Assembly: GCA_023055355.1 (NCBI GenBank)
Contig: JALJCS010000028.1
Span: 3,038,418-3,102,417 of the forward strand
Origin: Agelaius tricolor
Taxonomy: Eukaryota; Chordata; Aves; Passeriformes; Icteridae
Length of the DNA stretch: 64,000 nt
Direction: 5' to 3'
The notes under the pieces were generated by a model. The model made no database searches. It had not been told where the DNA came from and saw only the letters and a list, made by a program, of their open reading frames with translations. Made by a program: the position numbers and the translations under genes. Below, piece after piece: positions 935 to 60,019 of this stretch (within the stretch, counting starts at the first letter, position 1; each line of letters opens with the position of its first letter).

Positions 935-1246
935 ATGCCCCGCAGGAAGGCGGCGGGGCCGCCCTGGGACGCTGCGGGCCCGGGCCCTCAGGGCGGCGGG
1001 CGGCGGCGGCCGGGCCCTCAGGGCGGCGGGCGGCGGCGGCCCCGGCCCAGCGGCGGCAGCAGCGGCGGCAGCAGCGAGGAGGAGGCGCCCCGGGAGCGGC
1101 GGCCGCGGGACGGCAGCCCCGGGGCCCGCAGGCCCGGCAGGCCCGGCGGGGCGGCGGCGGCAGCGGCGGCGGCGGGGCCCGGAGGCCCCGGGGCCCGCGG
1201 GCAGAGCGTGGTGATCTGCGAGCCCGAGCACAGCAAGGAGCGCATC
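935..1246 (+). CDS. RCC2: RCC2 first coding exon
   Basis: Encodes residues 1-104, starting MPRRKAAGPPWD and ending EPEHSKERI at donor GTGAGC. The exon is very CpG-rich. It contains a perfect 30-base tandem duplication (981-1010 and 1011-1040) that duplicates GPQGGGRRRP in frame, plus Gly/Ser, acidic and poly-Ala runs. Confidence 0.95.
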
Positions 1247-4200
1247 GTGAGCTCGGGGGGGAGGGCGGCAGCACCCCCGGGACCCTGGTGTACCCCCCGT
1301 GCCCTGTTGTGCCCCATGAGACACCCCCAGTGTGTCCCTATTGTGCTCCATTACACATCCCCGCTGTGCCCCCATTGGGCCCCATGAGACATCCCCACTG
1401 TGTCCCTGTTCTCCATTACACACCCCTGCTGTGCCCCCCATCATGCCCCATGAGACACCCCCCGCTGTGCCCCCATTGTGCCCCCTGAGACACCCCCCGC
1501 TGTGTCCCTATAGTGCCCCATGAGACACCCCTGCTGTGTCCCTATTGTGCTCCATTACACATCCCCGCTGTGCCCCCATTGTGCCCCATGAGACATCCCC
1601 ACTGTGTCCCTGTTCTCCATTACACACCCCTGCTGTGCCCCCCATCATGCCCCATGAGACACCCCCGCTGTGCCCCTATTGTGCCCCATGAGACACCCCC
1701 CCCCGCTGTGTCCCTATTGTGCTCCATTACACATCCCCGCTGTGCCCCCATTGTGCCCCGAGACACCCCCATTGTGTCCCTATTGTGCCCCATACATGCT
1801 CCTACTGTGCCCCATTACACACCCCCACTGTGCTGCCATTGTGCCCCTTTATACACCCTCACTGTGTTCCTGTTGTGCCCCTTTATACACCCCCAGTGTC
1901 CCCATTGTGCCCCATTGCACACCCCCACTGCACCCCTTGGACCTACTGTGCCCCTATTGTGCCCCTTTATACACCCCCAGTGTCCCCATTGTGCCCCCAT
2001 TGTGCCCCTTTATACACCCCCAGTGCCCCCACTGTGCCCCATTGCACACCCTCACTGCACCCCTTGGACCTACTGTGCCCCTATTGTGCCCTTTATACAC
2101 CCCCACTGTGCCCCATTGTACCTAATGTTCCACCCCCAATACACCCCAAACCCCACTGCAGCCCCTGACCCCCATCCCGCCCCACTGCACCCCAAATTCC
2201 ATCCCATTGCACCCCAAACCCCACTGCAGCCCCTGACCCCCATCCCGCCCCACTGCACCCCAAATTCCATCCCATTGCACCCCAAACCCCACTGCACCCC
2301 AAATTCCATCCCATTGCACCCCAAACCCCACTTCACCCCAAATTCCATCCCATTGCACCCCAAACCCCACTTCACCCCCTGACCCCATCCTGCCCCACTG
2401 CAGCCCTTTCAGCACCCCATTATTGCCCCCATGTCCCTGCTGTCCCCATGTCCCTGCTGGCTCTGTCCCCAGTGTCCCCCACATCCCCTCTGCACCCCCA
2501 ATGTCCCCTGTGTCCCCCACACCCCCAATGTCCCCCACATCCCCTGTGTCCTCTACATCCCCAATGTCCCCCACGTCCTCCCCAGCCCTGCTGCTCCTTC
2601 TGTCCCCGTGTCCCTGTCCCAGATGACCCCAAGGTCCCTCACATTCCCCACATCTTCCCCCCTTGCTGATGTCCCCGATGTCCCGTGTCCCTCCCATCCC
2701 CGATGTCCCCAATGTCCTGTGTCCCACCCCCAATGTCCCCAGTGTCCCCAGGCCCCCACATCCCTGATGTCTCCATGTCCCCCCTGTCTCCCACAATGTC
2801 CCCAGTATCCCCCATGTCCCCCACATCCCTGATGTCCCACAATGTCCCCTGTGTCCCCAGCATCCCACTCACCCCCAAAGTCTTCCATGTCCTCCCATTC
2901 CTGATGTCCCCATGTCCCCCTGTCCCTGATGTCCCCCTGTCCCCCATATCCCTGATGTCCCTGTGTCCCCCTGTCCCAATGTCCCTGATGTCCCCGTATC
3001 CCCCAGGTCCCCTGATGTCCCTGATGTCCCCCTGTCCCTGATGTCCCCATATCCCTGATGTCCCTGTGTCCGCAGGTCCCGATGTCCCTGTGTCCCTGAT
3101 GTCCCCATGTCCCTGATGTCCCCTGATGTCCCCCATGTCCCCTGTGTCCCTCTGTCCCTGATGTCCCCAGTGTCCCTGATGTCCCCCATGTCCCTGATGT
3201 CCCCAGTGTCCCTGATGTCCCTGATGTCCCCCATGTCCCTGATGTCCCCTGATGTCCCCATGTCCCTGATGTCCCCTGATATCCCCCATGTCCCTGATGT
3301 CCCCTGATGTCCCTGATGTCCCCATGTCCCTGATGTCCCCTGATGTCCCCCACTGCAGCCCCTGACCCTGGGCACATGTCCCTGATGTCCCCTGATGTCC
3401 CCAACGTCCCTGATGTCCCCCATGTCCCTGTGTCCCTCTGTCCCTGATGTCCCCATGTCCCTGATGTCCCCTGACATCCCCTGATGTCCCTGACATCCCC
3501 CATGTCCCCTGATGCCCCTGATGTCCCTATGTCTCCTGATGTCCCTTGATGTCCCCATGTCTCCTGATGTCCCCCATGTCCCTGATATCCCCTGATGTCC
3601 CTGATGTCCCCATGTCCCTGATGTCCCCATGTCCCCCATGTCCCCATGTCCCTGATGTCCCCTGATGTCCCCTGACATCCCCTGATGTCCCCATGTCCCT
3701 GATGTCCCCCATGTCCCCTGACATCCCCTGATGTCCCCTGATGTCCCCTGATGTCCCCATGTCCCTGATGTCCCCTGACATCCCCTGATGTCCCCATGTC
3801 CCCATGTCCCTGATGTCCCCTGATGTCCCCATGTCCCTGATGTCCCCTGATGTCCCCTGATGTCCCCATGTCCCTGATGTCCCCTGATGTCCCCTGATGT
3901 CCCCATGTCCCTGATGTCCCCAGTGTCCCCATGTCCCTGATGTCCCCATGTCCCCACAGAAGCTCGAGGGCTCCAAGAGCCGGGGGCAGCTCCTGATCTT
4001 CGGTGCCACCAACTGGGACCTGATTGGCCGCAAGGAGGTGCCCAAGCAGCAGGGTAGGGCTGGCTCATTAACTAATGAACTGCTTAATTAGTCATTAATG
4101 AACCATGAGGGGCAGGGTAGGGCTGGCTCATTAACTAATGAACTGCTTAATTAGTCATTAATGAACCATGAGGGGCAGGGTAGGGCTGGCTCATTAACTA

Positions 4201-7200
4201 ATGAACTGCTTAATTAGTCATTAATGAACCATGAGGGGCAGGGTAGGGCTGGCTCATTAACTAATGAACTGCTTAATTAGTCATTAATGAACCATGAGGG
4301 GCAGGGGAGGGCTGGCTCATTAACTAATGAACTGCTTAATTAGTCATTAATGAACCATGAGGGGCAGGGTAGGGCTGGCTCATTAACTAATGAACTGCTT
4401 AATTAGTCATTAATGAACCATGAGGGGCAGGGTAGGGCTGGCTCATTAACTAATGAACTGCTTAATTAGTCATTAATGAACCATGAGGGGCAGGGGAGGG
4501 CTGGCTCATTAACTAATGAACTGCTTAATTAGTCATTAATGAACCATGAGGGGCAGGGTAGGGCTGGCTCATTAACTAATGAACTGCTTAATTAGTCATT
4601 AATGAACCATGAGGGGCAGGGTAGGGCTGGCTCATTAACTAATGAACTGCTTAATTAGTCATTAATGAACCATGAGGGGCAGGGGAGGGCTGGCTCATTA
4701 ACTAATGAACTGGTTAATTAGTCATTAATGAACCATGAGGGGCAGGGGAGGGCTGGTTCATTAACTAATGAACTGCTTAATTAGTCATTAATGAACCATG
4801 TGGGGCAGGGTAGGGCTGGCTCATTAACTAATGAACTGCTTAATTAGTCATTAATGAACCATGAGGGGCAGGGTAGGGCTGGCTCATTAACTAATGAACT
4901 GCTTAATTAGTCATTAATGAACCATGAGGGGCAGGGTAGGGCTGGCTCATTAACTAATGAACTGCTTAATTAGTCATTAATGAACCATGAGGGGCAGGGT
5001 AGGGCTGGCTAATTAACTGGTTAGTTAGTCATTAATGAGTGGTGTGGGGCAGGGGAGGGCTGGTTAATTAATGGCTGTTAATTAGTAATCAATGAGTGGT
5101 TTGGGGCAGGGTAGGGGCTCATTAATGGCTGGGATTAATCGGTATTAATTAGTAATCAATTAATGGTTTGGGGCAGGGCAGGGGCTCATTAATAGCTGAT
5201 TACTTTGGGTTAATTAGTAATCAATGAAGGATTTGGGGCAGGGTAGGGCCATATTAATGGCTGGGATTAATTGGTATTGATTTGAGGTTAATTAGTAATT
5301 AAGAAATGTTTTGGGGCAGGGTAGAGGTCCTTAATAGACGATTAATTAATTGGTATCAATTAGTAATCAATGAAGGGTTTGGGGCAGGGCAGGGGCTCAC
5401 TAATGGCTGTGATTAATTTGTATTAATTAGTAATCAATGAACATTTTGGGACAGGATAGGGGCTCACTAATGGCTGTGATTAATTGGTATTAATTAGTAA
5501 TCAATGAACATTTTGGGACAGGATAGGGGCTCACTAATGGCTGTGATTAATTGGTATTAATTAGTAATCAATGAACATTTTGGGACAGGATAGGGGCTCA
5601 CTAATGTCTGTGATTAATTGGTATTAATTAGTAATCAGTGAACATTTTGGGACAGGGTAGGGGCTCACTAATGGCTGTGATTAATTGGTATTAATTAGTA
5701 ATCAATGAACATTTTGGGACAGGATAGGGGCTCACTAATGGCTGTGATTAATTGGTATTAATTAGTAATCAATGAACATTTTGGGACAGGATAGGGGCTC
5801 ACTAATGGCTGTGATTAATTGGTATTAATTAGTAATCAATGAACATTTTGGGACAGGATAGGGGCTCACTAATGGCTGTGATTAATTGGTATTAATTAGC
5901 AATCAGTGAATGTTTCGGGGCAGGGTAAGGCCTCATTAAGGGGTGATTATTGCTATTAATTATGAATTGGGGCAGAGCAGGGCCCTCATTCTTGGCGGTG
6001 TGATTAATTAATGTTAATTTGTAATTAATGACCTTGAGTGGCATCTCGCAGTTTGGGGCAGAATTTGGGTGTCCAGCAGAGCCAAATTCGGGTTTTGTTT
6101 ATTTATGATGCATTTATAATTCATTAATTTTAATGATTGTTTTTATGTAGTTCTAATTAATTAATCAATCAATTAACTGGGGGAGGAGCCTCAGTTTCAC
6201 CCCTTAATTGGAGCAGGTTTGAGGGGGCACCAGCTCTGCTGCAAAGCCAAATTTTGCTTCTTTTGGATGCATTTATAGTTCATCAATTAATCTCTTTCTT
6301 TTCATGTGTATTTATTTAATTGCTATTAATATCTAATTAATTTTTAAGCTGGTTAATTAGGGAGGAGACACAGTTTGATGCAATAATTTGGGGTGCATCA
6401 GACCTGTGGCAAAAAAAAATGAAAACTTGGTTTAGTTGGAATCTTTAATACTCCATTCATTTTCCTGATTATTTTTATCTATTTCTAATTAATTATTTTC
6501 ATTAATTACTGGGGAGGAGCCACAGTTTCACCCCTTAATTGGGGCAGGTTTGAGGGGGCACCAGCTCTGCTGCAAAGCCAAATTTTGCTTCTTTTGGATG
6601 CATTTATAGTTCCTCAATTGATCTCTTTCTTTTCATGTGTATTTATTTAATTGCTATTAATATCTAATTAATTTTTAAGCTGGTTAATTAGGGAGGAGAC
6701 ACAGTTTGATGCAGTAATTCGGGGTGCACCACACCTGTGGCAAAAAAAAATGAAAACTCGGTTTAGTTGGAATCTTTAATACTCCATTCATTTTCCTGAT
6801 TATTTTTATCTATTTCTAATTAATTATTGTCATTAATTACCGGGGAGGAGCCTCAGTTTCACCCCTTAATTGGAGCAGGTTTGAGGGGCGCCAGCTCTGC
6901 CAAATTAAACCTCTGCTTCATTTTCAGCTCACTAATTATATCCTTCTTTTCAGGGGACCTAATTAATGAATATTAAAAATTAGCATTTAAATTAATTAAT
7001 GTTTAAAATGAACGAGCTGGGGGCGGAGTCACAGTTTCAGGTTTTAATTTGGGGCCTGAATTTGGGAGGCACCAGCGCTGCTGTGGAGCCTCTGCTCGTT
7101 AGGGGTGCCTGGAAAGTTCATTAATTAAGAACTCGTTAATTGGGGCAGGTTTGGGTGCCCCGGCCCTGCTGTGCCCTCCCCTGTGGGTTTGTCCCCATTT

Positions 7201-10200
7201 CCTGGCTCTGTCCCCAAATCCACCCTCAATTCCTGAGGGAATCCTGGAGATTGTCCCAGCGATTTTCCCAGAGGATTTTCCAGGTATTCCCAGATTTCCC
7301 AGATGATTTTCTGGGATGATTTTCCTGGATTTTCCCTGATCATTTTCCTGGATATTCCTGAATGATTTTCCTGGATTTTCCCTGATCATTTTCCTAGATT
7401 TCCCTGGATATTCCTGAATGATTTTCCTGGATTTTCCCGGTATTCCCATATGATTTTCCTAGCTGATTTTCCTGGATTTTCCTGCATTACTTTCCTAGAT
7501 TTTCCCAGTATTCCCAGATTATTTTCCTGGGTTATTTTCCCAGAGTTTCCTGGATTATTTTCCTGGATGATTTTCCCAGATTTTCCTGGGTTTTCCAGGA
7601 TGATTTTCCCAGGTGATTTTCCCAGTATTCCCAGATTTCCCAGATGATTTTCTGGGATGATTTTCCTGGATTTTCCTGAATGATTTTCCTAGATTTTCCC
7701 AGTATTCCCAGATTATTTTCCTGGTTGGTTTTCCCAGAGTTTCCTGGATTATTTTCCTGGATGATTGTCCTGGATTTTCCAGGATGATTTTCCCAGATTT
7801 TCCTGGGTTTTCCAGGATGATTTTCCCAGATGATTTTCCCGGTATTCCCAGATTTCCCAGATGATTTTCTGGGATGATTTTCCTGGATTGTTTTCCTGGA
7901 TGATTTTCCCGGTATTCCCAGATTTCCCAGATGATTTTCTGGGATGATTTTCCTGGATTTTCCCTGATCATTTTCCTAGATTTCCCTGGATATTCCTGAA
8001 CGATTTTCCTGGATTTTCCCAGTATTCCCAGATGATTTTCCTGGTTGGTTTTCCCAGGTTTTCTTGGGTTATTTTCCCAGAATTTCCTGGATGATTTTCC
8101 TGGATTTTCCAGGATGGTTTTCCCAGATTTTCCAGGATGATTTTCCCAGATGATTTTCCTGAATTTTCCCAGATTTTCTCGGATGATTTTCCCAGATGGT
8201 TTTCCTGGATGATTTTCCCGGTATTCCCAGATTTCCCAGATGATTTTCTGGGATGATTTTCCTGGATTTTCCCTGATCATTTTCCTGGATATTCCTGAAT
8301 GATTTTCCTGGATTTTCCCTGATCATTTTCCTAGATTTCCCTGGATATTCCTGAATGATTTTCCTGGATTTTCCCTGATCATTTTCCTGGATATTCCTGA
8401 ATGATTTTCCTGGATTTTCCCTGATCATTTTCCTAGATTTTCCTGGATATTCCTGAATGATTTTCCTGGATTTCCCCAGTATTCCCAGATGATTTTCCTA
8501 GTTGATTTTCCTGCATTACTTTCCTAGATTTCCCCAGTATTCCCAGATGATTTTCCTGGTTATTTTCCCAGAGTTTCCTGGATTCTTTTCCTAGATGATT
8601 GTCCTGGATTTTCCAGGATGATTTTCCCAGATTTTCCTGGATGATTTTCCCAGATTTTCCTGGGTTTTCCAGGATGATTTTCCCAGGTGATTTTCCTGAA
8701 TTTTCCCAGATTTTCCAGATGATTTTCTGGGATCATTTTCCTGGATTTTCCCTGATCATTTTCCTGGATATTCCTGAATGATTTTCCTGGATTTCCCCAG
8801 TATTCCCAGATGATTTTCCTAGCTGATTTTCCTGGATTTTCCTGGATTATTTTCTCCGAATTTCCTGGATTTTCCTGGATTATTTTCCTGGATGATTGTC
8901 CTGGATTTTCCCAGATAATTTTCCCAGGTTTTCCAGGATGGTTTTCCCAGGTTTTCCTGGATGATTTTCCAGTATAATTTTCCCAGATTTTCCTGTATTA
9001 TTTTTCTGTATATTTTCCCAGATGATTTTCCTGGCTGATTTTCCCAGATGTTTCTGTATTATTTATTATTTTCCTGGATTTTCCCAGATGATTTTCCTGA
9101 ATTTTTCTGGATTTTCCTGGATTATTTTCCTAGTATTCCCAGATGATTTTCCTGGATTTTCCTGGATTATTTTCCCGGTATTCCCAGATGATTTTTATGG
9201 CCGATTTTCCCAGATTTTTCCAGATTATTTTCCTGGATTTTCCCAGATTATTTTCCCAGTATTCCCAGATGATTTTTCTGGATATTCCCAGATGATTTTC
9301 CTGGATTTTCCCAGATTATTTTCCCAGTATTCCCAGATAATTTTTCTGGATGATTTCCCCGGATGTTCTCGAATGATTTTCCTGGATTATTTTCTGGATT
9401 ATTTCCCGTACTATTTTCCCAGACTGTTCTTTTCCCAGCTGCTTTTCCCATCTCTCTCTTTTCCCGGCCGCGTTTCCGGGCGCTGATCCCGCGCTCCTTC
9501 CCGGTGTTTTCCAGCGGCGTACCGGAACCTGGGCCAGAACCTGTGGGGGCCTCACCGCTACGGGAGCCTGGGGGGGCTGCGCGTGCGCTCGGTGGTGTCG
9601 GGGCCCTGCGCCGCCCACAGCCTCCTGATCACGGCCGAGGGCAAGCTCTGGAGCTGGGGTGAGCGGGAGCCAGCCCGGGAACACGGCTGGGATAATGGGA
9701 TCTATCCAGGGAACCTGGCTGGAATAGCGGGATCCATCCCGGGAACCCGGCTGGGATAATGGGATCTGTCCTGGGAACCCGGCTGGGATAGTGGGAGCCA
9801 TCCGGGGAGCCTGGCTGGGATAGTGGGATCCATCCGGGGAGCCTGGCTGGGATAATGGGATCCATCCGGGGAGCCTGGCTGGGATAGTGGGATCCATCCC
9901 GGGAACCAGGCTGGGAGAGCGGGATCCATCCGGGGAGCCTGGCTGGGATAATGGGATCCATCCAGGAAACCTGGCTGGGATAGTGGGATCCATCCTGAGA
10001 ACCCGGCTGGGATAGTGGGATCCACCCGGGGAACCTGGCTGGGAGAGCGGGATCCATCCCGGGAACCCTCCCAGGATAATGGGGTCAGCTGGGGAACCTC
10101 CCTGGGATAGCGGGATCCATCCCGGGAACCAGGCTGGGATAATGGGATCCATCCTGGGAAGCAGGCTGGGATAATGGGATCCATCCCGGGAAGCAGGCTG

Positions 10201-16200: not shown

Positions 16201-19200
16201 CCCCATGGGAGCCGGTATTCCTTCAGGTGTCCCAAGTACGGCCAGCTGGGTACGGCATCTGGGATCATTCCATGGGAATGGGATCACCCTGTGGGAATGG
16301 GATTTGGGATCGTCCCATGGGAATGGGATCACCCCATGGGAGCCTGTATTCTTTCAAGTGTCCCAAGTATGGCCAGCTGGGTACAGGATTTGGGATCTAT
16401 GGGATCACCCTGTGGGATCACCCCGTGGGAATGGGATTTGGGATCGTCCCATGGGAATGGGATCACCCCATGGGCGCCTGTATTCCTTCGGGTGCCCTGA
16501 GTATGGCCAGCTGGGTTCGGGATTTGGGATCCATGGGATCATCCCATGGGATCACCCCATGGGAGCCTGTATTCCTTCGGGTGTCCCAAGTATGGCCAGC
16601 TGGGTATGGGATTTGGGATCTATGGCATCACCCTATGGGATCATCCCATGGGAATGGGATTTGGGATCATCCCATGGGAATCTCTATTCCTTCAGGTGGC
16701 CAGAGTATGGCCAGCTGGGTATGGGATTTGGGATCCATGGGATCACTCCATGGGAATGGGATCACCCCATGGGAACAGGATTTGGGACCATCCCATGGGA
16801 ATGGGATTTGAGATCATCCCATGGGAATGGGATCACCCTATGGGATCACCCCATGGGAACCTGCATTCCTTCGGGTGTCCCGAGTACGGCCAGCTGGGTG
16901 TGGGATTTGGGATCTATGGGATCATCCCATGGGAATGGGAATTGGGATCACCCCATGGGAACCTGTATTCCTTTGGGTGGCCGGAGTATGGCCAGCTGGA
17001 TACAGGATTTGGAATCATTCTATGGGATCATCCCGTGGGATTAGGGCTGGTTGGGATCATCCCATGGAGTGGGGGCAGTTTGGGATCATCCCGTGGGATG
17101 GGGGCAGTTCAGGATCACTCTGTGGGGTCAGGGAAGTTTAGGATGACCCCTTGGGATGGGGCGGTTCAGAATGACTCCATGGGATCGGGGCAGTTCGGGA
17201 TCACCCTGCGGGATCGGGATGACCCTGCGGGATTGGGGCAGTTCAGGATCACCCTGCGGGATCGGGGCGGTTTGGGGTGACCCCATGGGATCAGGGCACT
17301 CCGGGATGACCCCACAGGACGCTCAGGTTGCTGTGCCCCGTTCCCGTTGCAGGCCACAATTCCGACGGGAAGTTCATCGCGCGGGCGCAGCGCATCGAGT
17401 ACGACTGCGAGCTGCTGCCGCGGCGCGTGGCGCTGTTCGTGGAGCGCACCAAGGACGGGCAGGTGCTGCCCGTGCCCAACGTCGTGGTCAGGGACGTGGC
17501 CTGCGGGGCCAACCACACGGTACGGGAATGTGGGAATGTGGGATATTGGGATTGGGATAATGGGAATGGGTCAGGGACGTGGCCTGCGGGGCCAACCACA
17601 CGGTACAGGAATGTGGGAATGTGGGATATTGGGATTGGGATAATGGGAATGGGTCAGGGACGTGGCCTGCGGGGCCAACCACACGGTACGGGAATGTGGG
17701 AATGTGGGATATTGGGAATGGGTCAGGGATGTGGCCTGCGGGGCCAACCACACGGTACGGGAATGTGGGAATGTGGGATTGGGATAATGGGAATGGGTCA
17801 GGCACGTGGCCTGCGGGGCCAACCACACAGTATGGGAATGTGGGAATGTGGGATTGGGATATTGGGAATGGGTCAGGGACGTGGCCTGCGGGGCCAACCA
17901 CACGGTATGGGAATGTGGGATCGGGATAATGGGATTGGGATATTGGGAATGGGTCAGGGATGTGGCCTGTGGGGCCAACCACGTGGTACGGGAATGTGGG
18001 AATGTGGGATAATGGGAATGGGTCAGGGACATGGCCTGTGGGGCCAACCACACAGTACGGGAATGTGGGAATGTGGGAATGTGGGATTGGGATAATGGGA
18101 ATGGGTCAGGGACATGGCCTGTGGGGCCAACCACACAGTACAGGACATGGGAATGTGGGATAATGGGATTGGGATAATGGGATTGGGATAATGGGAATGG
18201 GTCAGGAACGTGGCCTGTGGGGCCAACCACACGGTACAGGACATGGGAATGTGGGATAATGGGATTGGGATAATGGGAATGGGTCAGGGACATGGCCTGC
18301 AGGGCCAACCACATGGTATGGGAATGTGGGAATGTGGGATAATGGGAATGGGAATATGGGATTTGGGAATGGGAATGGGAATGGATGCAGGAATGAGAGA
18401 GCAGGAATGGGACTGGGAGAAGGAGAATGGAAAGAAGAAGACAGGAATGGGAGAGGGCAGCTCTCAGCCCCTGCTCCCCCATCCCAGCTGGTGCTGGATT
18501 CCCAGAAGAATGTCTTCTCCTGGGATTTGGGATTTGGGATCTCTGAGGCCCTGCTCCCTCTCTCCCAGCTGGTGCTGGATTCCCAGAATCGTGTCTTTTT
18601 CTGGGGTTTGGGATTTGGGGTTTGGGATCTGGGATCTCTGAGGCTGTTTTCCTGTCCCAGCTGGTGCTGGATTCCCAGAAGCGCGTGTTCATTTGGGATC
18701 TGGGGTTTGGGATTTGGGATCTCTGAGGCTGTTTCCCCTGTTCCAGCTGGTGCTGGATTCCCAGAAGCGCGTGTTCTCCTGGGATTTGGGATCTGGGATC
18801 TGGGGTTTGGGATCTGGGATCTCTGAGGCTGTTTTCCCTGTCCCCATCCCAGCTGGTGCTGGATTCCCAGAAGCGCGTGTTCTCCTGGGGTTTGGGATTT
18901 GGGATTAGGGATCTCTGAGGCTGTTTTCCTGTCCCAGCTGGTGCTGGATTCCCAGAAGCGTGTGTTCTCCTGGGATTTGGGATTTGGGATCTCTGAGGCT
19001 GTTTTCCCTGTCCCAGCTGGTGCTGGATTCCCAGAAGCACGTGTTCTCCTGGGATTAGGGGTTTGGGATTTGGGATCTCTGAGGCTGTTTCCCTGTCCCA
19101 GCTGGTGCTGGATTCCCAGAATTGCGTGTTCTCCTGGGATCTGGGGTTTGGGATTTGGGATCTCTGAGGCTGTTTTCCCTATCCCAGCTGGTGCTGGATT

Positions 19201-22200
19201 CCCAGAAGCGCGTGTTCTCCTGGGGCTTTGGGATTTGGGATTAGGGATCTCGGAGGCTGTTTTCCTGTCCCAGCTGGTGCTGGATTCCCAGAAGCGCGTG
19301 TTCTCCTGGGATCTGGGGTTTGGGATTTGGGATCTCTGAGGCTGTTTTCCCTGTCCCAGCTGGTGCTGGATTCCCAGAAGCGCGTGTTCTCCTGGGGCTT
19401 TGGTGGCTACGGGCGCCTGGGCCACGCGGAGCAGAAGGACGAGATGGTTCCCAGGCTGGTGAAGCTCTTCGACTTCCCGGGACGCGGCGCCGCCCAGATC
19501 TACGCGGGATACACCTGCTCCTTCGCCGTCAGCGAGACCGGTGCGACACGGCTCTGGGAATGCCGGGGGGGGGCGGTGAGACGGGTGGGATTTGGGATAT
19601 GGGATCTGGGAATGCTGGGGGGATGGCAGCGAGATGGGTGGGATATGGGACACGGGGTCTGGGAATGCCGGGGGGTGGCAGTGAGACGGGTGGGATACGG
19701 GATCTGGGATCTGGGATATGGGAATGCTGCAGGGGATAGCAGTGAGATGGGTGGGATACGGGATCTGGGATATGGGAATGCTGCAGGGGATGGCAGCAAG
19801 ATGGGTGGGATATGGGATTTGGGATATGGGAATGCTGCGGGGGATGGCGGCGAGACGGGTGGGATACGGGATTTGGGATATGGGAATGCCGGGGGGGAAT
19901 GGCAGTGAGATGAGTGGGATATGGGATTTGGGATATGGGAATGCCGGGGGGATGGCAGTGAGACGGGTGGGATTTGGGAATGCCAGGGGGGAATGCCAGG
20001 GAGATGAGTGGAATACGGGATCTGGGATCTGGGAATGCCGGGGGAGTGGCAGCGAGATGGGTGGGATACGGGATTTGGGATATGGGAATGCTGCGGGGAT
20101 GGCAGCGAGATGGGTGGGATACGGGATACGGGATAATGGGAATGCTGGGGGAATGGCAGTGAGATGGGTGGGATGTGGGGTTTGGGATATGGGAATGCCA
20201 GGGGGGAATAGCAGTGAGATGGGTGGGATACGGGATTTGGGATAATGGGAATGCTGGGGGATGGCAGCGAGATGGGTGGGATATGGGACACGGGGTCTGG
20301 GAATGCCGGGGGGGTGGCAGTGAGACGGGTGGGATATGGGATACGGGGTTTGGGATTTGGGAGTGCTGCAGGGGATGGCAGCGAGATGGGTGGGATACAG
20401 GATTTGGGATATGGGAATGCCGGGGGGTGGCAGTGAGATGGGTGGGATACGGGATTTGGGATATGGGAATGCCAGGGGGATGGCAGTGAGATGGGTGGGA
20501 TACGGGATTTGGAATTCAGGATTTGGGAATGCTGGGCGTGATGGCAGCGAGATGAGTGGGATATGGGATCTGGGACTTGGGAATGCCGGGAGGGATGGCA
20601 GCGAGACAGATGGGATTCAGGATTTGGAAATGCCAGGAATGCTGGGGGGGATGGCAGTGACACCAGTGGGGACCTGGGATTCGGGAATGCTGGGAATGCC
20701 GGGTGGGCTGGCAGCGAGACGGGTGGGATTTAGGATATGGGATTTGGGAATGCTGGGGGGGATGGCAGTGAGCCGGGTGGGGATCTGGGATTTGGGAGTG
20801 CTAAGGGGAGATGGCAGCAAGATGGGTGGGAATGCAGGATCTGGGATTTGGGAATGCTGGGGGAGATGGCAGCGGGACAGGTTGGATTTCCAGGATCCCA
20901 GCATTTGGGAATGCCAGGGAAGTCTTCAGCAGGACAGGTGGGAACTGGGATTTGGGATTAGGGAATGCTGGGGGGGCTGTCAGTGAGACAGGTGGGAATT
21001 TGGGATTTGGGAATGCTGGGGGACAGCTCTCAGTGGGACAAGTGGGATTCCCAGGATCCCAGGATTTGGGAATGCTGAGGGAGACAGGTGGGAATGCCAG
21101 GATCGCAGGATTTGGGAATGCTGGGAGAAAGGTGGACTGACAGGTGGGATTCCAGGGATGCAGGATTCAGGAATGCTGGGCAGGCTGTGGGATTCCCAGG
21201 ATCCTGAGATCTGGGAATGCCAGGGGAGCTGTGGCCTGACAGCTGGGATCCCAGGGATCTCAGGATTTGGGAATTCTGGGGGGAGCTGTTACCTGACAGG
21301 TGGGATTCCCAGCATTGGGAATTCCAGGGAATCTGTACCTTGACAGATGGGATTCCTGGGATCCCTGACAGATAGGATTCCTGGGAATGCTGGGATTTGG
21401 GAATTCTAGGGGGAGCTGTTACCTGACAGGTGGGATTCCCAGGATTTGGGAATTCTGGGATCTGTGCCCTGACGGGTGAGGTTCCTGGGATCCCTGACAG
21501 TTGGGATTCCCGGGATTTGGGCATTCTGGGATCTGTACCCTGACAGGTGGGGATTCCCGGGATCCCTGACAGTTGGGATTCCTGGGATTTGGGAATTCCG
21601 GGCTCCCTTGCAGGTGGATTGTTCTTCTGGGGCGCCACCAACACCTCCCGGGAATCCACCATGTACCCCAAGGCTGTGCAGGATCTGTGCGGGTGGAAGA
21701 TCCGCAGCCTGGCCTGCGGGTGAGCGCCGTCCCGGGAATTCCCGACCCCAATCCCGGGATTTGGGGCCCTGGGACACTCAGGGATCAGGGATTGCCTCCC
21801 TTGCAGGAAGAGCTCCGTCATCGTGGCGGCCGACGAGAGCACCATCAGCTGGGGGCCCTCGCCCACCTTCGGGGAGCTGGTACTGAATCACACCCCAAAA
21901 AACCCCAAATAAACCCCAAATGACACCCCAAATCCCCCAAACTGACACCCCAAACCCACCATCAGCTGGGGGCCCTCGCCCACCTTCGGGGATCTGGTAC
22001 TGAATCACACCCCAAAAAACCCCAAATGACACCCCAAAAAAACCCCAAATGACACCCCAAATAAAACACCAAAACCCCAACCTCTGACACCCCAAACCCA
22101 CTGTCAGCTGGGGACCCTCACCCACCTTTGGGGAGCTGGTACTGAATGACACCCCAAATAAAACCCCAAAAAAACCCCAAATGACACCCCAAAAACCCCA

Positions 22201-25200
22201 AATAAAACCCTAAAAACCCCAAACTGACACCCCAAACCCACCGTCAGCTGGGGACCCTCATCCACCTTTGGTGAGTTGGTATTGAATGACACCCCAAGTA
22301 AAACCCCAAAAGACACCCTAAAAACTCCAAATGACACCCCAAATAAACCCCAAAAAAACCCCAAATAAACCCCAAATAAAACCCCAAATCCACCAAACTG
22401 ACACCCCAAAAAAAACCCCAAATGACACCACAACTAAACCCCAAATGACACCCCAAAAAAACCCCAAATGACACCCCAAATAAAACACCAAAACCCCAAC
22501 CTCTGACACCCCAAACCCACTGTCAGCTGGGGACCCTCACCCACCTTTGGGGAGCTGGTACTGAGTGACACCTCTAATAAAACCCCAAAAAAACCCCAAA
22601 TGACACCCCAAAAACCCCAGCCTCTGACACCCCAAACCCACCATCAGCTGGGGACCCTCACCCACCTTTGGGGAGCTGGTACCGAATGACACCCCAAATC
22701 CCCCAAAGTGACACCCTAAAAACCCCAAAGTGACATCCCCAAACCCACCATCAGCTGGGGGCCCTCACCTGCCTTCAGGGAGCTGGTACTGAATAACACC
22801 CCTAATAAAACCCCAAATGACACCCAAAAAACCCCAAATGCCCTTAATACTCCAAGCCCCCCTAACTGACACCCCAAACCCACTGTCAGCTGGGGCCCCT
22901 TGCCAACCTTCAGGGACCTGGTACTGAATGACACCCCTAATAAAACCCCAAATGACACCCCAAAAACCCCAAATAAAACCCCAAAAACCCCAACCTCTGA
23001 CACCCCAAACCCACCATCAGCTGAGGGCCCTCGCCCACCTTCAGGGAGCTGGTAGTGAGTGACACCCCTAATAAAACCCCAAATGACACCCCAAAAACCC
23101 CAAACCCACCATCAGCTGAGGGCCCTCACCCACCTTCAGGGAGCTGGTACCAACACCCCTAATAAAACCCCAAAATGACACCCTAAATCCCCCAAACAGT
23201 CACCTCAAATACCCCTGGGAACCCCAAATCCCCTCAAGCCCTGGGGCCCGGCCCCTCTGCCCCACTGAGTGTTCCCTGTCCATGGGATCTTCCCACAGGG
23301 ATATGGGGACCACAAATCCCCCAAAGGGACACCCCAAAACCCCAAATCCCCCAAACCCCGGGCCCTTACTGAGCATTCCTGTCCATGGGGTGTTCCCACA
23401 GGGATATGGGGACCACAAACCCAAATCCCCCAAACCCCACTGAGTGTTCCCTGTCCATGGGGTGTTCCCACAGGGATATGGGGACCACAAACCCAAATCC
23501 CCCAAACCCCACTGAGTGTTCCCTGTCCATGGGATGTTCCCACAGGGATATGGGGACCACAAACCCAAATCCCCCAAACCCCACTGAGTGTTCCCTGTCC
23601 ATGGGATGTTCCCACAGGGATATGGGGACCACAAACCCAAATCGTCCACGGCGGCGCAGGAGGTGAAAACCCTGGATGGGATCTACACCGAGCAGGTGAG
23701 GGGACCCCACAGCGCTTGGGGATGCACAGGGGGGCTCATCCCATCTGTGGGGTGAGGGAAGGGACATACAGGGGAACATTTGGGGTGGCTGAGGCTGTGT
23801 GAGCTCATCACACCTGTGGGGTGAGGGAGGGAACACCTGGATCCCCCTAAAATGAAAGGGGGCACTGAGACCCTACACAGCTCATCCCACCTGTGGGGCC
23901 CTTCCCCTAAAATGAACAGGGACACTGAGGCCATGCACAGCTCATCACACCTGTGGGGTGATGCAGGGAGCACCTGAATCCCCTAAAATAAACAGGGGGG
24001 GCTCATGGCACCCATGGGGTGATGGAGAGAGGATACAGGGGGCCGTTCCCTAAAATAATTTGGGGTGGCTGAGGCCGTGCCCAGCTCATCAGACCCATGG
24101 GGTGGTGGAGAGGGGCACCTGCATTCCCCTCAAATAATTTGGGGTGGCTGAGGCCGTGCCCAGCTCACCCCACCTGTGGGGCCCTTCCCTAAAATGAACG
24201 GGGACACTGAGACCCTACACAGCTCATCCCACCTGTGGGGCCCTTCCCCTAAAATGAACAGGGACACTGAGACCCTACACAGCTCATCACACCTGTGGGG
24301 CCCTTCCCTAAAATGAACAGGGGTGGGGGGCCCTGTGGTGGATATGGGGCCATCCCATGGAATAAATAGGGACACTGAGACCCTACACAGCTCATCACAC
24401 CTGTGGGGTGAGGGAGGGAGCACCTGAATCCCCTAAAATAAACAGGGGGGGGGTCATGGCACCCATGGGGGTGATGGAGAGAGGATACAGGGGGTCGTTC
24501 CCTAAAATAATTTGGGGTGGCTGAGGCTGTGTGAGTTCATCACCCCCATGGGGTGGTGGACAGGGGCACCTGCATTCCCCTCAAATAATTTGGGGTGACT
24601 GAGGCCATGCCCAGCTCATCCCACCTGTGGGGCCCTTCCCTAAAATGAACAGGGACACTGAGGCCATGCACAGCTCATCACACCTGTGGGGTGAGGGAGG
24701 GAGCACCTGAATCCCCCTAAAATAAACAGGGGGGGGGGGTCATGGCACCCATGGGGTGATGGAGAGAGGATACAGGGCACCATTCCCTAAAATAATTTGG
24801 GGTGGCTGAGGCCGTGCCCAGCTCATCACACCCCTGGGTGAGGGAGGGAGGGCAGGGGGAACCCTCCCCTTGGGTAAACCCAGAGGCTGAGGCCGTGCCC
24901 AACTCATGACACTCGTGGGGTGATGGAGAGAGGGCACGTGAGGGCTGTTCCCTAAAATAAACAGGGAAACTGAGGCCATTCCCTAAAATAACAGGGAAAT
25001 TGAGGCCATTTCCTAAATTAAACAGGGAAACTGAGGCTGTGGACAGCTCATCAGATCCATGGGGTCATGGAGAGGGCACATGGGGCCATTCCCTAAAATA
25101 AACAGGGAAACTGGGGCCATTCCCTAAAATAAACAGGGAAACTGGGGCCATACACAACTCATCACATCCATGGGGTCATGGAGAGGGCACATGGAGCTGT

Positions 25201-26991
25201 TCCCTAAAATAAACAGGGAAAATGAAGCCGTGCCCGGCTCGTGACACCCATGGGGCCCTCCCCTAAAACAAACAGGGCAGTGGGGCTGTACCCAGCCCAT
25301 CCCACCTATGGGGTGATGCAGGGAGGGCACCAGGAGCTGTTCCCTAAAATAAACGGGAAATAAACTGAGGCTGTGCACAACTCATCACATCCATGGGGCC
25401 CTCCCCTAAAACAAACAGGGAAACTGAGGCCGTGCACAGCTCGTGACACCCATGGGTGCTGTGTGTGAATCCCCTTTAAATAAACCCAGGCCATGCACAA
25501 CTCATGGCACCAGGGTCCATTCCCTAAAATAAACAGGGACACTGAGGTCATACACAGCCCATGGCACCAGGGTCCATTCCCTAAAATAAACAGGGACACT
25601 GGGGCTGTGCCCAGCCTGTGACTCCCATGGGTGCCCTGCAGGGGGTGCAAGGTCCTTCCCTAAAACTGCCTTGGGATGCTCCAGCCCATCCTGGATCCCA
25701 GCAGGCGGGAGGGATCCCTCAGCTTCCCTTTCCCTTTTCCATGGGCAATGTCCACTCCTGGGTGACCCCAGTTCCATTCCCAGTTCCATTCCCAGTTCCA
25801 AAACCCCAGTTCCATTCCCAGTTCCACGGGCATTCCCACTCCCAGCCGCCCCATTCCCAGTTCCCTGGGCTATTCCCATTCCCAGCTGATCCATTCCCAT
25901 TCCAGGTGGCCTTGGGCTATTTCCAGCTGACCCTTTCCCATTCCCATTCCAGGTGGCCTGGCCATGGGCTATTCCCATTCCCAGCTGACCCATTCCCATT
26001 CCTGTTCCCATTCCCATTCCAGGCAGCCATGGGCTATTCCCATTCCCAGCTGACCCATTCCTGCTCCCATTCCAAGTGGCCATGGCCTATTCCCACTCCC
26101 ATTCCTGTTCCCATTCCCATTCCAGGTGGCCATGGCCTATTCCCATTCCCAGCTGACCCATTCCTGCTCCCATTCCAAGTGGCCATGGCCTATTCCCACT
26201 CCCATTCCTGTTCCCATTCCCATTCCAGGTGGCCATGGGCTATTCCCACTCCTATTCCTGTTCCTGACCCATTTCCATTCCTGCTCCCTTTCCCATTCTA
26301 GGTGGCCATGGGCTATTCCCATTCCCAGCTGACCCATTCCTGTTCCCATTCCCATTCCAGGCAGCCATGGGCTATTCCCATTCCCAGCTGACCCATTCCT
26401 GTTCTCATTCCCATTCCAGGTGGCCATGGGCTCTTCCCATTCCCAGCTGACCCATTCCCATTCCTGTTCCAGGTGGCCATGGCCTATTCCCATTCCTGTT
26501 CCCATTCCTGTTCCAGGTGGCCATGGCCTATTCCCATTCCCAGCTGACCCATTCCCATTCCCGTTCCAGGCGGCCATGGGCTATTCCCATTCCCATTCCT
26601 GCTCCCATTCCCATTCCAGGTGGCCATGGGCTATTCCCATTCCCAGCTGACCCATTCCCATTCCCATTCCCATTCCCAGCTGACCCATTCCCATTCCTGT
26701 TCCAGGTGGCCATGGGCTATTCCCATTCCCAGCTGACCCATTCCCATTCCCATTCCCAGCTGACCCATTCCCATTCCCAGCTGACCCATTCCCATTCCCG
26801 TTCTAGGTGGCCATGGGCTATTCCCATTCCCAGCTGACCCATTCCCATTCCCATTCCCAGCTGACCCATTCCCATTCCCGTTCCAGGTGGCCATGGGCTA
26901 TTCCCACTCTCTGGTGATCGCCCGGGACGAGTCGGAGGCGGAGCAGGAGAAGCTGCGGAAGCTCCCGGAGTACAACCCCCGCACCCTCTGA
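935..26991 (+). CDS. RCC2: RCC2 (TD-60), regulator of chromosome condensation 2
   Basis: Twelve exons join into an unbroken 531-residue protein: 935-1246, 3960-4053, 9515-9658, 12468-12599, 14228-14316, 15600-15714, 17353-17519, 19360-19540, 21614-21719, 21807-21879, 23618-23695, 26887-26991. All introns are GT-AG. Human RCC2 is 522 residues and matches in order from the VVICEPEHSKER region to the terminal LPEYNPRTL. Residues 1-90 are a basic, Gly/Pro/Arg-rich disordered tail. The rest carries RCC1-type blades with repeated GxGxxGQLGHG-like motifs (LWSWGRNEKGQLGHGD, FAFGENKLGQLGLGNQ, YSFGCPEYGQLG, FSWGFGGYGRLGHAE). Family knowledge: a mitotic centromere/midzone protein linked to the chromosomal passenger complex and to Rac1/Ral-type GTPase control. 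The intron arrays overlap many splice junctions. Where several candidate acceptors exist, the exon-proximal one was chosen because only it joins the full conserved exon in frame. Confidence 0.97.
1287..2120. repeat. RCC2 intron 1 minisatellite A
   Basis: Units based on cattgtgccccatgagacac and tgctccattacacatcccc, later cctttatacacccccagtg, are tandemly arranged with variable spacing. Confidence 0.85.
2126..2383. repeat. RCC2 intron 1 minisatellite B
   Basis: Repeated caaattccatcccattgcac and cccactgcaccccaaa units, about 35-70 bases per period. Confidence 0.85.
2424..3955. repeat. Decamer satellite (ccctgatgtc) in RCC2 intron 1
   Basis: A dense array of ccctgatgtc and ccatgtcccc decamers, most regular from about 3000, runs up to the exon 2 acceptor (ccatgtccccacag). 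The array therefore supplies the pyrimidine tract of the exon 2 acceptor. Confidence 0.9.
3960..4053 (+). CDS. RCC2: RCC2 coding exon 2
   Basis: Encodes KLEGSKSRGQLLIFGATNWD through EVPKQQ, near residues 105-135, the start of the propeller. It ends CAGCAGG before donor GTAGGG. The donor is the first of a regular array of CAGG/GTAGGG motifs every 63 bases. Confidence 0.96.
4052..5010. repeat. 63-bp AT-rich array beginning at the exon 2 donor
   Basis: About 15 near-identical 63-base units begin at the last bases of exon 2 (gggtagggctggctcatta). Each unit holds ggcagggtaggg or ggcaggggaggg, a copy of the exon 2 donor context, then palindromic AT elements such as tcattaatga and a ttaatta homeodomain-type core. 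Confidence 0.93.
5020..5935. repeat. Degenerate and 67-bp array, RCC2 intron 2
   Basis: Diverged relatives of the 63-base unit lead into eight or so 67-base units with gctcactaatggctgtgatt and attttgggacaggatagggg. The gggacaggGTAGGGGC core recalls the upstream donor-like motif. Confidence 0.85.
6181..6990. repeat. About 331-bp tandem duplication, RCC2 intron 2
   Basis: The stretch beginning gggaggagcctcagtttcac starts near 6181, 6511 and 6842, giving 2.4 copies. Internal landmarks such as gctgcaaagccaaattttgc and ctaattaatttttaagctgg recur at the same spacing. Sequence 5936-6180 and 6991-7230 is AT-rich and otherwise featureless. Confidence 0.85.
7230..9440. repeat. attttcctgg-type minisatellite, RCC2 intron 2
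   Basis: About 2.2 kb of gattttcctggattttccc, agtattcccagatgatttt and related 10-base blocks. Frames on both strands stay open because of the repeat only. Confidence 0.9.
9515..9658 (+). CDS. RCC2: RCC2 coding exon 3
   Basis: Encodes AAYRNLGQNLWGPHRYGSLG through EGKLWSWG, residues about 136-183. Donor is GTGAGC. Phase 1 on both sides. Confidence 0.96.
9675..12110. repeat. About 31-bp minisatellite, RCC2 intron 3
   Basis: About 75 units of the form ctgggataatgggatccatc plus ctgggaaccaggctggg. The unit resembles the exon 3 donor region (ctggGGTGAGCGGGAGCC), but the copies read ctgggagagcggg, so the donor GT is lost. Confidence 0.9.
12111..12440. repeat. Second repeat family, RCC2 intron 3
   Basis: Units of gggattccgggatcagaggg and aacccccctggga, about 30 bases, run to 30 bases before the exon 4 acceptor. 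Confidence 0.85.
12468..12599 (+). CDS. RCC2: RCC2 coding exon 4
   Basis: Encodes RNEKGQLGHGDTKRVEAPRP through CGRNHTLALT, residues about 184-227. The open frame continues into the intron 4 array with no stop for over 1.2 kb, but conservation stops at the donor GTACCG. Confidence 0.95.
12610..13820. repeat. About 21-bp minisatellite, RCC2 intron 4
   Basis: ggctggatcctgggaaacgg units repeat for 1.2 kb. The period is mostly divisible by three, so frames on both strands stay open for hundreds of codons. The remaining intron to 14227 has degenerate ccccaaatccaccccttt blocks. Confidence 0.9.
14228..14316 (+). CDS. RCC2: RCC2 coding exon 5
   Basis: Encodes ESGSVFAFGENKLGQLGLG through DAVPSPTQ, residues about 228-257. 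Acceptor ccccacag, donor GTACGG. Confidence 0.95.
14520..15590. repeat. tttctgatccc minisatellite, RCC2 intron 5
   Basis: Units of tttctgatcccattttcccag and cttttcctgtgtctctgatc repeat up to the exon 6 acceptor. The acceptor itself, ggtttttcccagATCC, looks like a unit in which ctgATCC became cagATCC. Confidence 0.85.
15600..15714 (+). CDS. RCC2: RCC2 coding exon 6
   Basis: Encodes ILYNGQPISKLGCGAEFSMV through YSFGCPEYGQLG, residues about 258-295. Its last 30 or so bases and donor GTACGG are copied about ten times in the following intron. Confidence 0.95.
15715..17010 (+). repeat. Exon 6 3'-end/donor copies, RCC2 intron 6
   Basis: Ten partial copies of the exon 6 end (tattccttcgggtgccccga then gtacggccagctgg) with donor, near 15792, 15966, 16058, 16213, 16346, 16482, 16566, 16684, 16862 and 16964. 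Nine of ten keep GT right after cagctgg; the last reads ggatac. Between them lie atgggatcaccccatggga spacers. Confidence 0.93.
17035..17330. repeat. gggatcggggcagttc repeats, end of RCC2 intron 6
   Basis: About eight degenerate units of ggggcagttcaggatcaccc lie between the exon 6 copies and exon 7. Confidence 0.8.
17353..17519 (+). CDS. RCC2: RCC2 coding exon 7
   Basis: Encodes HNSDGKFIARAQRIEYDCEL through VVVRDVACGANHT, residues about 296-351, ending at donor GTACGG. The last 30 or so bases plus donor are repeated ten times in intron 7. Confidence 0.95.
17520..18330 (+). repeat. Exon 7 3'-end/donor copies, RCC2 intron 7
   Basis: Ten copies of gtggcctgcggggccaacca with cacgGTACGG follow the real exon end, separated by gggaatgtgggatattggg spacers. 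All ten keep a GT at the donor position. Length is about 70-95 bases per unit. Confidence 0.95.
18480..19356 (+). repeat. Exon 8 acceptor/5'-start copies, RCC2 intron 7
   Basis: Ten copies of cccagctggtgctggattcc plus cagaagcgcgtgttctcctg precede real exon 8, separated by gggatttgggatctctgagg. All ten keep the AG acceptor and a short pyrimidine stretch. The copies truncate where real exon 8 continues into ggctttggtggctac. Confidence 0.95.
19360..19540 (+). CDS. RCC2: RCC2 coding exon 8
   Basis: Encodes LVLDSQKRVFSWGFGGYGRL through YTCSFAVSET, residues about 352-411. Ten upstream partial copies of the acceptor and exon start precede it. Only this copy continues into GFGGYGRLGHAEQKDEM, which fixes the choice of acceptor. 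Confidence 0.95.
19545..20950 (+). repeat. Exon 8 donor-derived array, RCC2 intron 8
   Basis: Roughly 25 units of about 50-55 bases carry ggcagcgagatgggtgggat, which matches the exon 8 end gtcagcgagaccGGTGCG. The spacers are acgggatttgggatatggga and aatgctgggg. Confidence 0.85.
20950..21610 (+). repeat. Acceptor-like array upstream of exon 9, RCC2 intron 8
   Basis: Units of tgacaggtgggattcccagg and atttgggaattctggg. The recurring gacagGTGGGATT resembles the real exon 9 acceptor and start, ttgcagGTGGATTG. Confidence 0.75.
21614..21719 (+). CDS. RCC2: RCC2 coding exon 9
   Basis: Encodes GLFFWGATNTSRESTMYPKA through IRSLACG, residues about 412-446. The next intron is only 87 bases and is the one RCC2 intron with no repeat array. 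Confidence 0.95.
21807..21879 (+). CDS. RCC2: RCC2 coding exon 10
   Basis: Encodes KSSVIVAADESTISWGPSPT then FGEL, residues about 447-471. The donor is GTACTG, and the exon end plus donor recurs nine times downstream. Confidence 0.94.
21880..23190 (+). repeat. Exon 10 3'-end/donor copies, RCC2 intron 10
   Basis: Nine copies of accatcagctgggggccctc, then cacctt and ggggagctgGTACTG, near 21958, 22100, 22240, 22519, 22641, 22748, 22881, 23012 and 23108. The spacers are gaatgacaccccaaaaaccc repeats. All keep GT after the CTG or TTG codon. Confidence 0.93.
23270..23617 (+). repeat. Exon 11 acceptor/5'-start copies, RCC2 intron 10
   Basis: Four units of about 75-100 bases carry gttcccacagggatatgggg then accacaaac, ahead of the real exon 11. 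Each keeps cacag/GGATATGGGGACCACAAA. Confidence 0.93.
23618..23695 (+). CDS. RCC2: RCC2 coding exon 11
   Basis: Encodes GYGDHKPKSSTAAQEVKTLD then GIYTEQ, residues about 472-497. Four decoy copies of acceptor plus GYGDHK start lie within the preceding 330 bases. Only the last continues into KSSTAAQEV. Confidence 0.94.
23696..25640. repeat. Complex array, first part of RCC2 intron 11
   Basis: Units include cagctcatcacacctgtggg, gtgagggagggagcacctga and cctaaaataaacaggg. The recurrent tggGGTGAGGG resembles the exon 11 donor cagGTGAGGGG, but the resemblance is short. Confidence 0.8.
25740..26886 (+). repeat. Exon 12 acceptor/5'-start copies, RCC2 intron 11
   Basis: About sixteen copies of ttccaggtggccatgggcta ttccc lie between 25895 and 26830, joined by attcccagctgacccattc linkers. 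Most keep AG; two read ccaa and have lost it. Confidence 0.93.
26887..26991 (+). CDS. RCC2: RCC2 last coding exon
   Basis: Encodes VAMGYSHSLVIARDESEAEQ through LPEYNPRTL and stop TGA at 26989-26991. About sixteen imperfect copies of the acceptor and VAMGYSHS start precede it. Only this copy carries SLVIARDE. Confidence 0.95.
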   Translation: MAMGYSHSLVIARDESEAEQEKLRKLPEYNPRTL

Positions 26992-28932: not shown

Positions 28933-29166
28933 TCAGGGCACCACGTGCCACCACTTGAAGGCGAAGGGCTTGCGGCGCACGTTGGTGCCGCAGTGAACCT
29001 CGCCCAGCAGGACGTGGTAGGAGAAGAAGTCGTCGATGAAGGTGCAGGAGAGGCCCAGCGGCTCCAGCAGCTCCCGCACGCGCTGCTCCAGGCAGCAGCG
29101 CCCGCCCACCACGGGCCCGAAGGGCTTGGGGATGCCCAGGTGCCGGCCCAGCACCAGCATGTTCAC
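28933..29166 (-). CDS. PADI3: PADI3 last exon with catalytic Cys639
   Basis: Encodes [20 protein letters not shown] through KWWHVVP and stop TGA. It carries the nucleophile in [12 protein letters not shown]. From 29008 upward, including 31 intron bases, it is identical to the PADI1 last exon. Confidence 0.95.
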
Positions 29167-45993: not shown

Positions 45994-46227
45994 TCAGGGC
46001 ACCACGTGCCACCACTTGAAGGCGAAGGGCTTGCGGCGCACGTTGGTGCCACAGTGGACATCCCCCGACAGGACGTGGTAGGAGAAGAAGTCGTCGATGA
46101 AGGTGCAGGAGAGGCCCAGCGGCTCCAGCAGCTCCCGCACGCGCTGCTCCAGGCAGCAGCGCCCGCCCACCACGGGCCCGAAGGGCTTGGGGATGCCCAG
46201 GTGCCGGCCCAGCACCAGCATGTTCAC
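45994..46227 (-). CDS. PADI1: PADI1 last exon with catalytic Cys647
   Basis: Encodes [20 protein letters not shown] through KWWHVVP. It differs from the PADI3 last exon at only six bases, all clustered near DVHCGT, and gives two amino-acid changes (LLGEVH versus LSGDVH). Confidence 0.95.
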
Positions 46228-59938: not shown

Positions 59939-60004
59939 GGCGAGCCGGGCACGGCTGCATGGGCAGGGAGCTCCGCCGGCTGTGCCGGGAAACCAGCAGG
60001 ACTG

Positions 60005-60014
60005 GATTAAAAGG
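60005..60014 (-). promoter_or_regulatory. PADI1: PADI1 TATA-like element
   Basis: The gene strand reads CCTTTTAATCC about 70 bases upstream of the ATG at 59938. It is a weak match compared with the PADI3 TATA box. Confidence 0.35.
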
Positions 60015-60019
60015 CTCGG

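Follow-up and report, generated by a model that had tools for sequence, protein, structure and literature searches.

Several introns of the RCC2 gene of Agelaius tricolor are filled with tandem arrays, and the question raised by this locus is whether these arrays were made from the splice junctions of the gene itself and, if so, whether the exon edge is a privileged place for their formation. The original prediction had proposed the first and offered for the second either a slippage or repair hotspot at exon edges or a tolerated or selected redundancy of splice sites.

The RCC2 gene and its setting

We have analyzed a stretch of 64 kb (the window) within a 9.32-Mb contig (C28) of an assembly that comprises 1.157 Gb in 214 contigs. 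RCC2 lies on the plus strand and has 12 exons with GT/AG borders and an intact frame of 531 codons, and its C-terminal 60 residues match PDB 5gwn ('Protein RCC2'). Two PADI genes on the minus strand, also with tandem repeats in their introns, were used as controls.

935..26991, plus strand: RCC2 coding region from ATG to stop (frame, borders and PDB 5gwn match)
935-1246, 3960-4053, 9515-9658, 12468-12599, 14228-14316, 15600-15714, plus strand: RCC2 exons 1-6
17353-17519, 19360-19540, 21614-21719, 21807-21879, 23618-23695, 26887-26991, plus strand: RCC2 exons 7-12
28933..44603, minus strand: PADIa, control gene, 661 codons, 15 introns, intronic tandem repeats
45994..59938, minus strand: PADIb, control gene, 666 codons, 15 introns, intronic tandem repeats

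The start of 4052 given in the original prediction has to be corrected, the GT of the exon 2 donor being located at 4054. Intron 11 of PADIb contains a very AT-rich block (48600-50000, with a GC of 0.215 at 49001-50000) with recurring ATATAAATAT-like runs.

Copies of the exon edges in RCC2

Three tests were applied to the exon edges. In the exon-only test, 30-mers were taken wholly from the exon (its last 3 or first 2 bases being omitted) and an edge passed when it beat all 100 shuffles and all the other introns. Six of the 22 RCC2 edges did so (the donors of introns 6, 7 and 10 and the acceptors of introns 7, 10 and 11). Among the 60 edges of the two PADI genes only the acceptor of PADIa intron 1 passed, marginally (11.5 against a null maximum of 10.5), and it was confirmed neither by the junction test nor by the blast screen. 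The junction test, based on 24-mers centred on the exon-intron junction, was significant at eight of the 22 RCC2 edges (donors of introns 2, 6, 7, 8 and 10, acceptors of introns 7, 10 and 11), whereas exon-junction copies were found at none of the 60 edges of PADIa and PADIb (Fisher P about 9e-6). Finally, the blast screen followed the thresholds of Hron et al. (blastn-short, at least 20 nt and at least 42.1 bits), here on the plus strand only and with our own exon models. It gave 38 proximal and no distal matches in RCC2, distal ones being absent also at 34 bits, and zero matches in PADIa and PADIb. Exon-edge copies were therefore absent from PADIa in two tests, with one marginal edge in the third, and from PADIb in all three despite its intronic tandem repeats.

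All 46 of the RCC2 matches with at least 34 bits fall in the intron that adjoins the copied edge, in agreement with the claim that the real donor is the first copy and the real acceptor the last, and 44 of them extend to within 2 bases of the exon border. Tandem repeats (TRF) cover 0.98, 0.93, 0.91 and 0.63 of introns 6, 7, 10 and 11. That RCC2 introns carry arrays derived from the gene's own splice junctions is thus largely real, and the individual arrays, all on the plus strand, are the following.

4049..5018, plus strand: intron 2, donor side, 63-bp unit repeated 15.4 times (98% matches); of 16 mapped decoys, extending as far as 5095, 11 have an intact GT in the 9-mer of the real donor
9653..12056, plus strand: intron 3, 32-bp unit, starting 6 bases before the end of exon 3, most copies without the donor
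15785..17018, plus strand: intron 6, donor side, 10 copies with about 43 nt of exon 6 and the donor, GT intact in 9 of 10
17569..18341, plus strand: intron 7, donor side, 10 copies with the last 34 nt of exon 7 and the donor, GT intact in 10 of 10
18462..19310, plus strand: intron 7, acceptor side, 10 copies, each with an intact AG, of the acceptor and up to 44 nt of exon 8
19602..21022, plus strand: intron 8, donor side, at the level of the junction, 14 partial matches of which 9 reach the exon part
21957..23162, plus strand: intron 10, donor side, 9 copies with about 40 nt of exon 10 and the donor, GT intact in 9 of 9
23260..23571, plus strand: intron 10, acceptor side, 4 copies, each with an intact AG, of the acceptor and about 26 nt of exon 11
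25835..26857, plus strand: intron 11, acceptor side, 18 decoys with the acceptor and about 23 nt of exon 12, AG intact in 14

The units had been described as including the end of the upstream exon with its GT or an AG with the start of the downstream exon, and this holds for the donor sides of introns 6, 7 and 10 (exon part up to 43, 34 and 40 nt) and for the acceptor sides of introns 7, 10 and 11 (up to 44, 26 and 23 nt), introns 7 and 10 being seeded at both ends. The donor unit proposed for intron 8 is real at the level of the junction, about 11 exon bases plus GTG, which occur in 12 copies with up to 2 mismatches and in none among the 48,023 bases of the other introns. The array of intron 2 does begin at the donor, as had been stated, the first 5 bases of its unit being the end of exon 2. 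For intron 3, only the position of the start could be maintained, since the match to the junction is within chance (9 of 200 shuffles match as well) and most copies have no donor, and we have rejected it as a donor-seeded array. Copies in the intron 2 array are much more alike than those of the other arrays, so that it is probably recent, and GT has become GG in 5 of its 16 copies. AG|GT is present in most of the intron 11 copies.

Fate of the decoy splice sites

The dozens of decoy sites announced for this gene are there. We mapped 77 of them in seven RCC2 arrays (donors of introns 2, 6, 7 and 10, acceptors of introns 7, 10 and 11), and 67 keep their GT or AG (39 donors and 28 acceptors), 24 of the 77 being an exact match to the genuine splice core. 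When used as a simple extension of the exon, none of the 67 intact decoys gives an in-frame, stop-free product. Over seven arrays, six from RCC2 plus that of a third PADI gene described below, with the intron 2 array left out, the GT and AG of the decoys had accumulated 6 substitutions; random dinucleotides other than CpG, drawn from these units, would predict 7.4 (P of as few = 0.51). The intron 2 array shows the opposite trend, with a core rate of 0.133 versus 0.020 overall, because several of its nearly identical copies have GG in place of GT. The pooled count shows neither retention of decoys by selection nor a general purging of them, and both ideas were dropped. Selected splice-site redundancy, among the original proposals, is thus left unsupported, with decoy sites changing at the background rate and no usable extension among them. 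The spare splice sites in the RCC2 introns look like neutral by-products.

In each of the seven RCC2 arrays, divergence was slightly lower in the exon-derived than in the intron-derived part of the unit (for example 0.053 vs 0.059 at the intron 7 donor, 0.088 vs 0.107 at the intron 6 donor and 0.000 vs 0.039 at the intron 10 acceptor). The array of the third PADI gene was reversed (0.032 in the exon-derived and 0.018 in the intron-derived part). The lower divergence of the exon part in RCC2 could be a hint of constraint or of conversion by the exon.

Identity to the exon edge drops with distance from it, with a mean Spearman rho of -0.46 over eight arrays that none of 4000 permutations equalled, although the permutation overstates the gradient because the copies within one array are related. 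The gradient was negative in all seven RCC2 arrays tested, three of them individually with P < 0.05; the array of the third PADI gene had no such gradient (rho +0.36). This fits growth near the exon as well as local homogenisation by the conserved exon copy, which look alike in these data.

Random duplication and the exon edge

In order to have a reference for the number of arrays that contain exon bases, we used a model in which tandem duplications fall at random over intron and border and those internal to the exon are removed by selection. Its inputs were the unit lengths of the sequence itself and the collapsed intron lengths, and an array was counted if it carried at least 20 exon bases. 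With TRF periods and collapsed introns standing in for the ancestral state, the model predicts 5.0 to 11.0 exon-bearing arrays for RCC2 and the two PADI genes together, depending on how arrays are counted, versus the 6 seen, all of them in RCC2. For RCC2 alone the expectation was 1.9 to 6.2 versus 6 (P of at least 6 between 0.013 and 0.59), and for PADIa plus PADIb 2.0 to 4.8 versus none seen in the blast screen (P of none from 0.135 to 0.009). Under this model RCC2 may possibly be modestly enriched over the random expectation. The model predicts about the observed count and therefore an exon-edge hotspot is not needed. Of the hotspot proposal, what stands is the local seeding of arrays from the borders, and a special property of those borders is not required.

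Other genes and the repeat-rich island

A third PADI gene (PADIc) was found on the plus strand by tblastn with the first two PADI genes and by Pfam PAD matches. It extends beyond the window, and its last exon shows the same pattern as RCC2, so the idea that RCC2 is the sole such gene here was rejected. The first 43-44 nt of this exon are copied 8 times in the preceding intron at no less than 42.1 bits (11 times at 36 bits or more), with AG|GT in most copies; it was the only one of the 11 coding segments tested in this gene that had copies.

60001-64000 of the window plus sampled pieces L020 and L021 (C28, about 3105-3117 kb), plus strand: PADIc
L021, about 3447-4450: PADIc acceptor-side exon-stuttering array, 7 of the 8 aligned copies retaining AG

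Past PADIc there is an SDHB-like gene with two Fer2_3 matches, of which one exceeds the Pfam cut-off and the other falls short of it. Six segments that Pfam identified in other C28 genes (two SDHB-like, one kelch, one HSP20-type and two CLC) had no copies at 34 bits or more, the kelch segment being part of a longer open frame. Among RCC1-family segments from the rest of the genome, 21 were examined out of the 67 matches listed (three of those 67 being RCC2 itself), and a single one had a copy at 38 bits or more. These segments are weak controls, being cores of matches whose ends are often not exon ends, so that border copies could be missed. Pfam scans of three further pieces (L018 and L022 on the minus strand, L016 on the plus strand) gave no match.

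In an RCC1-family gene of another contig (piece L040, C36, about 101.6-101.9 kb) we found a single 28-nt copy about 260 bp away. The tandem duplication involved takes in an exon-like stretch together with an intron and the first part of the exon after it, and it is perhaps an early stage.

Tandem repeats covered from 0.16 to 0.89 of each of 15 pieces taken in the window and between 2.8 and 3.3 Mb of C28 (two of those sampled being half N). In all ten other pieces of C28, the telomeric one apart, the coverage was 0 to 0.10. Ten 3-kb pieces from other contigs gave 0.25 and 0.36 for C31 and C33 and 0 to 0.09 for the other eight. The interval from 2.8 to 3.3 Mb (pieces L015-L023 and the window) appears as a GC-rich island, rich in tandem repeats, in an otherwise repeat-poor contig. 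The first 5 kb of the contig are also tandem repeat, of the telomeric CTAACCC type where inspected. Two sampled pieces (L019 and L009) contain exactly 5000 N at their positions 5001-10000, and one of them adjoins the left end of the window.

Origin of the arrays

The reading that we hold as quite probable is that the RCC2 arrays are a case of exon stuttering, that is, neutral duplications across exon borders that are tolerated on the intron side. Short tandem duplications would arise at many places along this microchromosome stretch, which is rich in GC and prone to expansion. Those internal to an exon would harm the protein and be lost, and those spanning a border would be tolerated because the duplicate falls on the intron side and the exon stays whole. 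The genuine donor would stay at the head of its array, or the genuine acceptor at the end, and exon definition, by picking the innermost acceptor-donor pair, might protect the transcript. Further slippage or unequal exchange would multiply the unit, mostly near the exon, older copies would drift together with their decoy splice sites, and the length of the arrays is presumably polymorphic in the population.

Exon borders could instead be true hotspots, where replication-transcription conflict, break repair or secondary structure seeds duplications. The strictest variant of the model, with 1.9 arrays expected for the 6 strong RCC2 edges (P = 0.013), points in this direction, as do the double seeding of introns 7 and 10, the tendency of the nearest copies to be the most exon-like and the chicken data, in which more than 90% of the sources lie no further than 1 base from the border (Hron et al., 2026; PMC12954441). 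However, the other three variants gave no significant excess (P = 0.08 to 0.59), the pooled count of the three genes is what random duplication predicts, the 60 PADI edges were all negative in the junction test, and closeness to the border would be expected anyway if only border-spanning copies are tolerated. We regard hotspots as unlikely. A related reading, to which we give slightly more credit but which is still doubtful, takes exon edges as preferred, polar seeds in interior GC-rich islands of ordinary microchromosomes, with arrays that extend outward from the conserved border and are re-templated by the exon again and again; if so, polar seeding would depend on the local sequence environment rather than on dot chromosomes.

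Decoys kept by selection, either as an aid to splicing or to tune RCC2 output through nonsense-mediated decay, would agree with the many intact GT and AG (67 of 77) and the 24 exact cores, with AG|GT in most intron 11 copies and with the report that human introns contain usable sites of the unannotated and AGGT kinds (Duan et al., 2024; PMC10809524). Yet the decoy cores are conserved no better than the rest of the unit, no intact decoy out of 67 yields an in-frame, stop-free extension, and 5 of the 16 copies in intron 2 have lost their GT to GG, which makes this explanation very improbable. We give even less weight to an assembly artefact, arrays that would be an over-expanded consensus of difficult GC-rich repeats. 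It might be suspected from the near uniformity of the intron 2 array (98% matches) and from the caution over local technical variation in such introns expressed by Hron et al. (PMC12954441), but most copies in the other arrays differ by scattered substitutions, the RCC2 exons and splice borders are intact, and in chicken PHF8 the general intron structure was checked against raw nanopore reads (PMC12954441).

Comparison with known systems

The original prediction considered that repeated seeding at exon borders was not a described pattern. It has in fact been described in chicken as exon stuttering or sequence stuttering, in 236 introns of 115 genes (Hron et al., 2026; PMC12954441), the only source in which our literature search found these terms. 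Judged by its sequence, RCC2 is a new example, of the same kind in another setting. The resemblance lies in the tandem partial exon copies with a splice site, confined to the adjoining intron, in the source at the border, the intact exon and the introns of simple repeats, and in the size of the exon part, 23-44 nt versus a median of 36 nt in chicken (PMC12954441). With the thresholds of that work RCC2 has 38 proximal and no distal matches, a border source, intact exons and repeat-covered introns. Replication stress or meiotic exchange were the causes proposed in chicken, and local repeat expansions that differ between species were already mentioned for other birds (PMC12954441). The main text of Hron et al. 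contains no mention of RCC2.

The setting is different from that of most chicken cases, 190 of the 236 introns being on dot chromosomes, 10 on other microchromosomes and 36 on macrochromosomes (PMC12954441). The chicken dots are chromosomes 16, 29-32 and 34-38, with chromatin marks as part of their definition (PMC12954441), and the genes here match chromosome 21, where PADI3, PADI1, PADI2 and SDHB are located at 135-171 kb in an account of the region that does not name RCC2 (PMC6343938). Location on a dot is a strong association in chicken and not a requirement, and neither the 9.32 Mb of the contig nor its synteny with chromosome 21 indicates a dot here. The case adds one gene and one bird to a newly described form of genome instability, and neither size nor synteny marks its chromosome as a dot. 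Two tools come with it, a test at the sequence level, in which decoys made by stuttering changed at the pace of the background, and a null model that does not have to treat exon borders as special.

Introns are reportedly also gained by tandem genomic duplication, when the duplicated stretch carries splice sites. Unlike that process, RCC2 shows no new intron, and it is the existing introns that grow outward from the exon edge.

The closest parallel for the decoys themselves is found in the dual-specific splice sites of tandem repeats such as those of UBC (Duan et al., 2024; PMC10809524). Both have tandem units with splice motifs, and AG|GT appears in most copies of RCC2 intron 11 and of PADIc. 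The UBC repeats are coding and their splice sites functional (PMC10809524), whereas those of RCC2 are intronic and carry putative sites. With dozens of decoys, 24 of them identical to the genuine core, around an intact frame, RCC2 offers a natural test of how the spliceosome chooses its sites.
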